Virus record (IMG/VR): IMGVR_UViG_3300030107_005477
Span: 1-36,900 of that record
Reading direction: 5' to 3' (one strand)
Length of the DNA: 36,900 nucleotides
Source: a virus
The position numbers and the translations under genes were made by a program. Below the pieces are notes generated by a model. It was given only the letters and a program-made list of their open reading frames with translations. It did not search any database and had not been told where the DNA came from. Of this stretch, positions 11,804 to 36,523 are shown piece after piece (the stretch's first letter is position 1; the number at the start of each line of letters is the position of its first letter).

Positions 11804-12033
11804 GTTTTTTAATGCCTAAAATGAGTTTGCCTCCCATGCCAGCACCCCCTCCTCCACCTCCTCCTGCGCCAACACGCGACAGCGAAGATATCGCAAAAGC
11901 AAAAGAGGCAGAGCGTGAAAGACTACAGCGGATGGCAGGGCGTAAGGCCAGTATTATGACAACCTCGCGTGGATTGCTGGATGATCCTGATACCGCGTCA
12001 CCTTCGCTTATAGGACAAAAAACGAATACATGA
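11800..12033 (+). CDS. Proline-rich small virion-region protein
   Basis: 77 residues; ATG overlaps the terL stop as ATGA. A poly-proline stretch (PPMPAPPPPPPPAPTRDSED) is followed by a charged helix (AKAKEAERERLQRMAGRKAS). This arrangement (Pro-rich, then AREAERxR...GR) recurs in small proteins between terminase and portal genes of marine podoviruses. Its resemblance to the protein at 12493-12765 suggests the two are related. Role unknown, possibly a head-assembly accessory. Confidence 0.72.
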   Translation: MSFLMPKMSLPPMPAPPPPPPPAPTRDSEDIAKAKEAERERLQRMAGRKASIMTTSRGLLDDPDTASPSLIGQKTNT

Positions 12034-14584: not shown

Positions 14585-14801
14585 CATCATTGCGGCTTAC
14601 CGCATGGTGTTTGGTTCAGAAGATGGAGAAACTGTGCTTGATGATTTGGAAGCGCGGTTTTTTATGCATGCCCCAACGTTTGTTGCCGGTGATCCGCATG
14701 AGTCAGCTTACCTGGAAGGACAACGGTCTGTGGTGCTGACAATTTTGCATATGATTTCAGATGAACGACAACAACCTAGAGGAGAAGATGTTGATGAGTG
14801 A
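14553..14801 (+). CDS. Bbp19-like phage protein
   Basis: 82 residues from TTG 14553 (GAGG about 10 nt upstream), overlapping the portal 3' end by 32 nt. The core AAYRMVFGSEDGETVLDDLE, ...PTFVAGDPHESAYLEGQRSV, then LTILHMI fits the Bbp19 family, found between portal and scaffold genes of Bordetella phage BPP-1-like and marine podoviruses. Function unknown but location is conserved. No ATG gives a full-length family member, so a TTG start is inferred. Confidence 0.75.
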   Translation: MANRKPQRLNDIIAAYRMVFGSEDGETVLDDLEARFFMHAPTFVAGDPHESAYLEGQRSVVLTILHMISDERQQPRGEDVDE

Positions 14802-15630
14802 AGAGCAGACAACTGCGGCGGCAGATACGCCAGAACCGCAGCCTGTAGACGCACAACCGCAAGCAGAAACAGGCATATCTGAAAATTGGCGAGATGGTTT
14901 ACCCGATGATTTAAAAATGAATGCAAGTTTGCTTAAATTTAATGATGTCGGTTCCCTGGCTAAATCTTATGTCAACGCACAGCGTATGATTGGTGCAGAC
15001 AAAATAGCCTTGCCAAATGAGCATTCAACCGATGACGAATGGGGCGAGGTGTATACAAAGCTCGGACGCCCGGATACTTCGCAGGGTTATGAACTGTCTT
15101 ACGACAGCGGAAACGAAGACACCAACATGATTGGCGCATATTCTGAAGCTGTTCATAATCTTGGGCTGAGTCAAAAACAGGCGCAGGGCATGTTAGATTG
15201 GTATTCAACAGTTGAAGCCGAAGGACAAAAAGTAGCTGGCGAGGCGTCTGAACATGCAACAGAAGAAGGCATGCAGGCGTTAAAATCAGAATGGGGGCGT
15301 GCTTTTGAACAAAAAGCAGCTTCTGCACAACGAGCTGCCACAGCACTGCTAGGGTCAACAGATATGTTTGATGAGATTACCTTAGCTGATGGTCGAAAAC
15401 TTGGTGATCATCCTGACGTCGTAAAAATGTTTGCAACACTTGCAGAACAAATTGCCGAAGATAAGATTGTCGGTGAAACAACAGAAACAGCATTTACTCC
15501 AGACGAGGCTATGAGGCGCATTGCAGAAATTACTGCACCGAATAGCCCTTATTGGGATAAGCATCATCCGCAACATATGATTATGGTTGAAGAGGCGTTG
15601 CGGCTTAGAGAGTTTGCACACCCTGAGTAA
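14794..15630 (+). CDS. Capsid assembly scaffolding protein
   Basis: 278 residues from ATG 14794 (ATG 14788 is also possible; GGAG lies just upstream). The N-terminus is acidic and disordered (EEQTTAAADTPEPQPVDAQP). NWRDGLPDDLKMNASLLKFN and DVGSLAKSYVNAQRMIGADK follow, a block typical of podovirus scaffolds. The rest is long helices. Position between Bbp19-like gene and major capsid gene is the canonical scaffold slot. It guides prohead assembly and leaves before packaging. Confidence 0.87.
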   Translation: MSEEQTTAAADTPEPQPVDAQPQAETGISENWRDGLPDDLKMNASLLKFNDVGSLAKSYVNAQRMIGADKIALPNEHSTDDEWGEVYTKLGRPDTSQGYELSYDSGNEDTNMIGAYSEAVHNLGLSQKQAQGMLDWYSTVEAEGQKVAGEASEHATEEGMQALKSEWGRAFEQKAASAQRAATALLGSTDMFDEITLADGRKLGDHPDVVKMFATLAEQIAEDKIVGETTETAFTPDEAMRRIAEITAPNSPYWDKHHPQHMIMVEEALRLREFAHPE

Positions 15631-15765
15631 TTAAGGTGTGCTTTGTAAAACCCCAGGATAAGCGCAAGCCCCTTGGCGTATAATCGTGAGTCGATTGGAC
15701 TAGCGGCCTAACCGCAGGACAGGCCTCGAAAGAGACAACCACCGTAGCAACACTTAACCTTAATT
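15629..15765 (+). ncRNA. Structured leader RNA upstream of the major capsid gene (unrecognised)
   Basis: A perfect 9-bp helix, AATTAAGGT (15629-15637) with ACCTTAATT (15757-15765), extended by GTG/CAC (15638-15640 with 15751-15753), encloses several hairpins. These are CGCAAG/CTT-g-GCG (15663-15678), AATCG/CGATT (15682-15696), GCGG/CCGC (15703-15715) and CTC-GAAA-GAG (15725-15734). GGCCT (15705-15709) can alternatively pair with AGGCC (15721-15725), giving two exclusive folds. The capsid ribosome binding site (15775-15780) lies just after the closing helix. No known RNA family was recognised. Confidence 0.5.
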
Positions 15766-15786
15766 GATAAAGAAAGGAGGATTTGC

Positions 15787-17048
15787 ATGTCTACGCAAAT
15801 CACAACTGCCTTTGTTAATCAATTCTCCAGCAACGTGCAGATGTTGTCGCAGCAAATGGGTTCGCTGCTTCGGTCTGCTGTTGATGAGGAATCGATAACA
15901 GGGGAAAAAGCCTTTTTTGATCAAATCGGTTCGGCGGCGGCGGTGAATTTTCGCCTAGCTAGAGTGTGAACTTTAGCTGAAAACTGCTCAAATTCGGTGA
16001 AGGCTTTAAAATGCTAATACCGAGCGAAGCCCTAATTTGGGAACGTGTAGAGACTTGACGGGCAGCATCTTTATAAGATGAAGATAAAGTCCAGCGCACA
16101 AACATTTTTATGGCAGTGAAAGCTGTAGTGTGAAGGAAACGCACAAGCCGGCATAGTGACACCCCCCTCGTTACGACACCACATAGCAGGCGTCAAGTAG
16201 CCTTAGTGGACTATGAGTGGGCAGATTTGATTGATTCGGCCGACATGGTGAAGACTTTGATCTCGCCCGAAAGCTCTTATGCGAAGGCTGCGGCCGCGAG
16301 CATGGGAAGGGCGATTGATGATGAAATCATCTCTGCAGCGTTTGGTGACGCTAAAACAGGTAAGGAAGGTGGCACAACTACATCTTTCCCTGCCGGGCAG
16401 CAAGTTGCTGTTGGTTCACCAGCTGCGGGATTAACGATAGCTAAACTGGTTAACGCCAAGAAAATTCTTGATGCTAATTCAGTGGATCCATCTATCCCAC
16501 GGTATATCGCTGTTTCACCTGAGCAAATTGAAGACTTGCTCAACAACACAACAGTTACAAGCGCAGACCATAACACGGTAAATTAGCTTGCCTATCTAGG
16601 TGGCAACATTTAGATGAAAATCGGTCAAATTCGGGGAAGCCTTAACAGGTAATGCTGATGGTAATCGCGAGCCAAGCCCTTCGGGGAAGGTGTAGAGACT
16701 AGACGGCTGACACCCCTAGCGGGTGAAGGGATAGTCCAGACTCCAAACGTCTTATGACGGCAGTGAAAACTGTAGAGGGTATGAAGAGCTTTAGCTGTTG
16801 GTGACATCGACACCTTCGTAGGGTTTAAGTTCATTGTTTCAAACCGCCTTGACACCAATGCAAGTTCGCAACGTCGCGTAATTGCATGGGCGCAGGACGG
16901 AATAAAACTAGCAGTTGGCAAAGACGTTACTGCTAGAATTTCGGAACGTGACGACAAATCCTATTCCACTCAGGTCTACTACTGCATGTCAGTAGCTGCG
17001 ACTCGAATGGAAGAAGAGAAGGTCGTTGAAGTCATATGTTCAGAATAG
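15787..17048 (+). CDS. Major capsid protein, split by two group I introns (join 15787-15944, 16136-16579, 16787-17048)
   Basis: Spliced length is 864 nt, giving 287 residues. Exon 1 starts at ATG 15787 after AAAGGAGG and encodes MSTQITTAFVNQFSSNVQML. Exon 2 carries RHSDTPLVTTPHSRRQVALV then DYEWADLIDSADMVKTLISP, and exon 3 carries DIDTFVGFKFIVSNRL and ARISERDDKSYSTQVYYCMS. These blocks match the podovirus capsid family with TSRHxDTP, DYEWADLID and GRISERDDKRYATQVYxSMSVGATRMEE. Unspliced reading stops at 15967 and again at 16584. Splicing rebuilds AAV-KRTSRH and NTV-ALAVGDIDTF. A residue found after NTV in relatives (from memory) is missing here. The downstream decoration gene follows after 12 nt. 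Confidence 0.9.
15945..16135 (+). ncRNA. Group I intron 1 (191 nt, no ORF) in the major capsid gene
   Basis: The 5' exon ends CGGU. P1 is GGU|GA paired with UCGCC (15951-15955), placing a U.G wobble at the splice site. P10: UUUC (15949-15952) pairs with exon 2 start GAAA. P2 is AGCUAGAG (15957-15964) with CUUUAGCU (15971-15978). P3 is CUGCUC (15984-15989) with GGGCAG (16060-16065). P4 is UUCGGU (15993-15998) with ACCGAG (16019-16024). P6 is CCC/GGG (16030-16041). P7 is GACUU (16052-16056) with AAGUC (16087-16091). P8 is CAUCUU/AAGAUG (16066-16080). A GAAA-capped P9 hairpin follows and the intron ends in G (16135). There is no homing endonuclease. Confidence 0.92.
16580..16786 (+). ncRNA. Group I intron 2 (207 nt, no ORF) in the major capsid gene
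   Basis: The exon again ends CGGU. P1 is GGU|AA with UUGCC (16588-16592), with the U.G wobble at the splice site. P2 is AUCUAGGU (16594-16601) with AUUUAGAU (16608-16615). P3 is UCGGUC (16621-16626) with GGCUGA (16705-16710). P6 is CCC-UUCG-GGG (16677-16686). P7 is GACUA (16697-16701) with UAGUC (16732-16736). P8 is CACCC/GGGUG (16711-16725). Then come a CGUC-UUAU-GACG hairpin and CAGU-GAAA-ACUG (P9 region), with terminal G at 16786. P2, P3, P7 and P8 differ from intron 1 by compensating changes. Length is divisible by three but an in-frame stop (16584) requires splicing. Confidence 0.92.
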
Positions 17049-17060
17049 GAGGTATAGAAA

Positions 17061-36447: not shown

Positions 36448-36523
36448 TCCCCGGTAGCTCAGTTGGTAGAGCGCCCGGCTGTTAACCGATTTGTCGCTGG
36501 TTCGAGTCCGGCCCGGGGAGCCA
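36448..36523 (+). tRNA. tRNA-Asn (anticodon GTT), likely part of attP
   Basis: 76 nt including an encoded CCA. The acceptor stem TCCCCGG/CCGGGGA is perfect, the D arm is GCTC...GAGC, the anticodon loop CTGTTAA gives GUU, and the T arm has GCTGG/CCGGC with GTTCGAGTC. The discriminator is G. The anticodon stem pairs only three of five positions (CCCGG against CCGAT), with two outer mismatches, so function as a tRNA is doubtful or reduced. Tyrosine integrases commonly use tRNA genes as attachment sites; the integrase gene starts 245 nt downstream. Confidence 0.85.

Follow-up and report, generated by a model that had tools for sequence, protein, structure and literature searches.

A conserved structured RNA, whose family is absent from Rfam 15, lies directly upstream of the major capsid protein (MCP) gene in an HTVC010P-like podovirus and in many of its relatives. 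The contig analysed here is a 36.9-kb IMG/VR virus record (hereafter, the window), in which the RNA occupies the gap between the scaffold gene and the MCP gene. Given its near-fixed distance to the ribosome start, the RNA probably sets the amount of shell protein, and on balance we favour reading it, from its sequence and by analogy, as a cis-acting 5' leader of the MCP gene that sustains high capsid synthesis and tunes it, a function like that of the T7 gene 10 leader.

Results

Genomic setting and search for known RNA classes

The best named matches of the protein encoded immediately upstream of the leader RNA are capsid-assembly proteins of HTVC010P-type pelagiphages (36-39% identity), and its profile matches are phrog_3742 and the protease family phrog_458. 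Downstream, exon 2 of the MCP gene matches pelagiphage MCPs at 58-64%. The genes, introns and elements of the leader are listed in Table 1. Two group I introns are likewise present in the MCP region of one related locus, L018 (2709-2918 and 3356-3546), and a tRNA gene was found by Rfam search close to the 3' end of the window (36448-36520).

Table 1. Features of the scaffold-MCP region in the window
Feature	Position	Strand	Description
Scaffold/capsid-assembly protein gene	14761-15630	+	289 aa; its stop codon runs into the 5' arm of the closing helix (window only)
Closing helix, 5' arm	15629-15640	+	AATTAAGGT + GTG; window only; perfect 9 bp
P1 hairpin	15653-15676	+	GG-AUAA-GC-GCAA-GC-C-CC; first A(U/C)AA/C module (AUAA 15658-15661, single C 15670)
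P2 hairpin	15682-15696	+	AAUCG-UGAGU-CGAUU; two-sided changes at all 5 pairs
Pseudoknot, 5' strand	15697-15698	+	GG; partner CC 15707-15708 in the P3 loop
P3 hairpin	15703-15715	+	GCGG-CCUAA-CCGC; loop C15707-C15708 are the pseudoknot bases
P5, 2-bp outer helix of P4	15717-15743	+	GG 15717-15718 with CC 15742-15743; GC/GC in most relatives
P4 hairpin	15722-15740	+	GG-C-CUC-GAAA-GAG-ACAA-CC; second module, opposite orientation (C 15724, ACAA 15735-15738)
A/U-rich spacer, P5 to AUG	15744-15786	+	43 nt; Shine-Dalgarno AAAGGAGG at 15773-15780
Closing helix, 3' arm	15757-15765	+	ACCTTAATT; window only; partners 15629-15637
MCP gene	15787-17049	+	phrog_3437 major head protein; interrupted by two group I introns
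Group I introns in the MCP gene	15935-16113, 16570-16762		Rfam search

Searching the window and 20 relatives against Rfam 15 at both gathering and permissive thresholds returned only group I introns, a tRNA and scores at chance level. No group I intron core was found over the leader, the introns of the window being confined to the two positions within the MCP gene. The view taken from the sequence alone, that the structure is unlike the introns and matches no recognized RNA class, is supported for the window and these relatives.

Conservation and covariation of the fold

Related loci (n = 160) were collected from IMG/VR by MCP and scaffold searches, using alignment and MCP exon queries, and the scaffold stop and MCP start could be located in 158 of them besides the window, so that the gaps between the two genes could be compared. 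The same RNA recurs in these gaps, with sequences too diverged for a plain nucleotide match: when phage records were searched for sequences close to the leader, the matches were at chance level only. Queries with the scaffold protein alone or with an 18-base exact pattern found no close relatives. Covariation in relatives had been named beforehand as the test on which the sequence-only reading would stand or fall, and it is present. In an alignment of 38 homologues, 98.1% of the pair cells are paired and 16 of the 23 pairs show two-sided changes; none of 500 shuffles reached any of five measures, sliding the partners against each other destroyed the pairing, and the result was unchanged when the window was removed. 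In a larger alignment (82 rows), all 23 pairs changed on both sides, although these rows were aligned to the model and hence lean towards it.

Phylogenetic relatedness was taken into account by a purpose-built, tree-aware null following roughly the idea of R-scape, in which substitutions reconstructed by the Fitch method on a FastTree tree were permuted over columns to give 60 null alignments. Twelve column pairs were significant, 11 of them within the nested structure. The twelfth, the only significant pair outside it, joins the base after P2 to the second base of the P3 loop and, together with its neighbour, forms a 2-bp pseudoknot, the versions of which across viruses are GC (20), AU (7) and CG (4).

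A covariance model built from 34 sequences, with the window left out, detected the covarying P1-P4 fold in the window as a single match (15650-15752; 63.1 bits, E = 8e-17, the E-values being rough owing to a short calibration). Nothing else in the window fell below E = 0.05, the next best match having E = 0.07; a lookalike of a second copy at 11945-11965 was rejected (E = 1.8). The leader RNA is thus a conserved structured RNA. The case for it rests on comparison, because its folding energy in the window is ordinary (-34.1 kcal/mol, z = -1.12, with 22 of 200 shuffles equally stable).

Architecture of the leader RNA

The conserved fold comprises hairpins P1, P2, P3 and P4, the pseudoknot and the short outer helix P5. 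The sequence-only reading, which had proposed a regulatory or stabilizing RNA enclosed by a perfect 9-bp helix, was right about the existence of a structured element and its tie to the capsid gene, whereas two of its defining parts did not survive comparison. The closing helix (AATTAAGGT/ACCTTAATT) is real in the window, where none of 300 flank shuffles matched it, as are its extension by GTG (15638-15640) opposite CAC (15751-15753) and the hairpins that it encloses, at least four in number and one with a GAAA loop (15728-15731), but it has no counterpart in 25 of the 26 relatives tested, the sole exception being a 7-bp helix at locus L126 (P = 0.04). Similarly, the two mutually exclusive pairings that had suggested a switch, GCGG/CCGC (15703-15706/15712-15715) and GGCCT/AGGCC (15705-15709/15721-15725), are both possible in the window, but the latter is not conserved: its positions are paired in 58.5% of cases in relatives versus 58.1% after shuffling, leaving no second conserved pairing between which a riboswitch could alternate. 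Since neither is conserved in relatives, the family is better defined without the closing helix and without the switch. The pseudoknot, the repeated module described below and its recurrence before other capsid and scaffold genes had not been noticed in that reading.

Position before the capsid gene

Among 26 whole viral records, the model matched in 13, never more than once per genome, and all matches up to E = 0.01 were MCP leaders. In the representatives, the end of P5 lies at a nearly constant distance from the AUG (38.2 ± 3.4 nt), whereas the interval between the scaffold stop codon and P1 varies widely (29.5 ± 46.6 nt), indicating that the element is registered on the capsid start codon and not on the upstream gene. 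In the window, the fold ends 43 nt before the MCP start codon, within the range of about 35-47 nt taken to define the family. This position and near-fixed spacing support the tie in cis to the capsid gene that had been surmised from the window alone. The spacer has a higher A+T content than its own locus in 76 of 77 leaders, and a Shine-Dalgarno sequence is present in 96% of the representative leaders. In a post hoc comparison, a T7 enhancer-like TTAACTTTA (≤1 mismatch) occurred in 16% of the spacers of the 77 representatives and in 1% of shuffles.

No U-tract follows the hairpins on the + strand, and the leader RNA is therefore not an intrinsic terminator or attenuator; a promoter search at the leader region yielded nothing that stands out. 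Judging from strand, gene order and the lack of a terminator, the leader is presumably transcribed together with the MCP gene.

The pelagiphage isolates (L002-L007) show the same plan by eye, beyond the reach of the covariance model. They carry a small gene of ~57 aa between the scaffold and MCP genes, whose last codons overlap P1, so that in these phages the P1 sequence serves both the gene and the RNA. The alternative that this open reading frame is a false gene called over the RNA was rejected on account of its codon-wise variation and a frame-keeping 27-nt insertion. In seven further loci (L093, L126, L129, L132, L054, L057 and L070), the UAA stop codon of the scaffold gene falls within the AUAA loop of P1, so that a terminating ribosome would melt the hairpin.

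A repeated internal-loop module

One internal loop, an A(U/C)AA strand facing a single C, is common to P1 and P4. Its orientation is reversed between the two hairpins, A(U/C)AA belonging to the 5' strand of P1 and to the 3' strand of P4. On its 5' side, A(U/C)AA is flanked almost invariably by a G-C pair; the pair on its 3' side varies and covaries, and the terminal loops of the module hairpins are variable (GNRA, UUCG and others). In the window, both P1 (15656-15672) and P4 (15722-15740) carry the module beside a G-C pair.

Of the 77 representative leaders, 74 have the module (mean after shuffling, 11.7) and 48 have at least two copies of it (1.0 after shuffling). With stricter pairing, it was found in 67/77 IMG/VR MCP leaders and in only 0.9% of 1,855 other 200-nt windows from the same loci. 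The pattern having been defined on these 77 leaders, an independent set matters, and there the module was present in 13 of 25 MCP leaders from bacterial genome and metagenome-assembled genome (MAG) contigs versus 1.1% of control windows. The number of copies varies, some relatives showing one, three or no recognizable copies; HTVC028P (L009), for example, has no recognizable module in its leader. Among the leaders on bacterial genome and MAG contigs, L200, L204, L199, L197 and L205 carry the module in up to three copies, with three seen by eye in L200 and L204. The titles of module-bearing contigs of this kind name Omnitrophica, Chloroflexi, Ensifer, Phyllobacterium and Rhodobacteraceae, of which Ensifer could offer a culturable test system for a module-bearing leader.

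The module before other virion genes

IMG/VR was scanned for two exact module strings, one from P4 and one from P1. Among the matches listed for the P4 string, an HTVC010P-type MCP lay downstream in 104 of 120 contigs; for the P1 string, this was so in 57 of 78. Other exact matches formed clean hairpins with the module, placed 13-80 nt ahead of further virion genes, including those for Gp10A-type MCPs (PF21703, phrog_267), the phrog_9953 and phrog_1357 major head proteins, a scaffold related to the T7 capsid assembly protein and the phrog_3927 head scaffolding protein (hairpin-bearing leaders L263, L271, L306, L313, L224, L351, L309 and L353). Because several of these contigs are near-duplicates, the recurrence outside HTVC010P-type MCP genes amounts to about five or six independent groups. 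Matches inside open reading frames (L215, L258, L282, L296, L359, L371, L378 and L379) are probably due to chance and were set aside.

The sharing of one module by unrelated capsid families speaks for common machinery and against one particular capsid protein as the cognate partner. We tentatively suggest that the A(U/C)AA/C hairpin may be a portable module, placed in one to three copies before capsid or scaffold genes in several unrelated groups of tailed phages and recognized by a common host component (ribosome, RNA polymerase or RNase) that sets structural-gene output; if so, it would be a general, previously unrecognized control element of late genes.

Discussion

Proposed function of the leader RNA and alternative explanations

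In the explanation that we prefer, the leader RNA would act in cis on the gene that follows it. The folded domain would stop just upstream of the initiating 30S subunit and could protect the capsid message on its 5' side against decay or processing, while the A/U-rich ribosome landing site would be left open, so that capsid protein could far exceed the portal and scaffold proteins encoded upstream on the same transcript. A hairpin serving stability alone would need neither a conserved internal loop nor a pseudoknot, implying a specific putative partner. The module may be a recognition element for a factor present in many hosts, such as the ribosome, a ribosomal protein, an RNase or RNA polymerase, since phages of different hosts have it ahead of capsid and scaffold genes that are unrelated. 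HTVC010P-type phages encode no RNA polymerase of their own and are predicted to rely on that of the host (PMC10504331). With this reliance, they cannot boost capsid mRNA from a phage promoter as T7 does, which makes a leader acting on stability and initiation a natural alternative.

The main rival, which we consider rather unlikely, is autogenous feedback, whereby free capsid or scaffold protein would bind the A(U/C)AA/C modules and repress capsid translation until assembly consumes it. One module that is repeated identically two or three times in a leader, and in two orientations, has the look of a protein-binding site, the element travels with capsid and scaffold genes, and the scaffold of P22 regulates its own synthesis. 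Yet the module also precedes scaffold genes and unrelated MCP families (phrog_3437, phrog_267/Gp10A, phrog_9953 and phrog_1357), which is awkward for one cognate protein, and the fold does not cover the Shine-Dalgarno sequence.

It is distinctly unlikely that the leader is a transcription element, the nascent RNA binding RNA polymerase and causing antitermination or anti-pausing across the late operon in the manner of the HK022 put sites, which its tandem structured hairpins resemble in outline. The lack of an RNA polymerase of their own in HTVC010P-type phages (PMC10504331) would suit such a role, but the site lies mid-operon, directly before the MCP gene and not at the operon start, and its fixed distance to the AUG is not something that transcription requires.

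For a riboswitch, in which the internal loops or the pseudoknot would bind a small molecule or ion gating capsid synthesis, one could cite the compact pseudoknotted fold, the conserved unpaired bases and the tandem similar hairpins, which recall tandem aptamers. We regard it as very improbable, as there is no expression platform (no terminator, no conserved alternative pairing and no sequestered Shine-Dalgarno sequence) and the element always stands before virion genes, in varied hosts. Little probability likewise attaches to an RNA acting in trans or carried in the virion, for instance one that serves in packaging, as phi29 pRNA does, or one that frees itself from the transcript by self-cleavage: it is encoded among the portal, scaffold and capsid genes, in one copy per genome, but the fixed spacing to the AUG combined with variable upstream spacing favours action in cis, and the overall fold differs between lineages while the module persists. 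Finally, chance folding or a relic of a group I intron or mobile element, to which the two introns in the same MCP gene and the ordinary folding energy might point, has a negligible probability, being already refuted by covariation across many intron-free relatives and by the lack of a group I match to the leader.

Significance and comparison with known systems

The carriers of the capsid-leader RNA are an abundant, mostly marine group of bacterial viruses, HTVC010P-type phages being among the most abundant viruses in the sea (PMC10504331). As a putative cis-acting capsid leader, the RNA would provide a direct handle on how these phages make a large excess of capsid protein without their own RNA polymerase. 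The repeated use of one module ahead of unrelated capsid and scaffold genes suggests that late-gene expression in phages follows a general rule, and the module could serve as a marker of structural genes in phage contigs.

In the literature searched, we found no description of the capsid-leader RNA, though a large survey of viral RNA candidates may list it uninterpreted: Fremin and colleagues reportedly catalogued many thousand such candidates, among which it could be included. Structured RNAs described mainly from marine metagenomes and phages include Ocean-V, manA, wcaG and PhotoRC-II, candidates of Weinberg 2010 (PMC2864571). None of these is described there as tied to a capsid gene, and the word 'capsid' is absent from that article (PMC2864571). 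For those present in Rfam, neither the window nor its relatives had a match.

The put RNA of HK022 is a phage leader composed of adjacent structured hairpins; it functions in antitermination of an early operon and is not known to keep a fixed distance to a start codon, unlike the capsid leader, and the likeness is one of outline. The pRNA of phi29, a branched RNA of ~100 nt, is also encoded by a podovirus but acts in trans in the packaging motor, whereas the spacing of the capsid leader points to cis. In the T7 gene 10 leader, a hairpin lies about 42 nt before the AUG. The ribosome-binding site of that gene combines a strong Shine-Dalgarno sequence with an upstream enhancer that raises translation (PMC8748333). 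Without any claim of homology, and with a multi-hairpin fold, a pseudoknot and a conserved internal-loop module here but no promoter for a phage RNA polymerase, the T7 gene 10 leader would come closest in function, both RNAs leading into a major capsid gene with a strong Shine-Dalgarno sequence.
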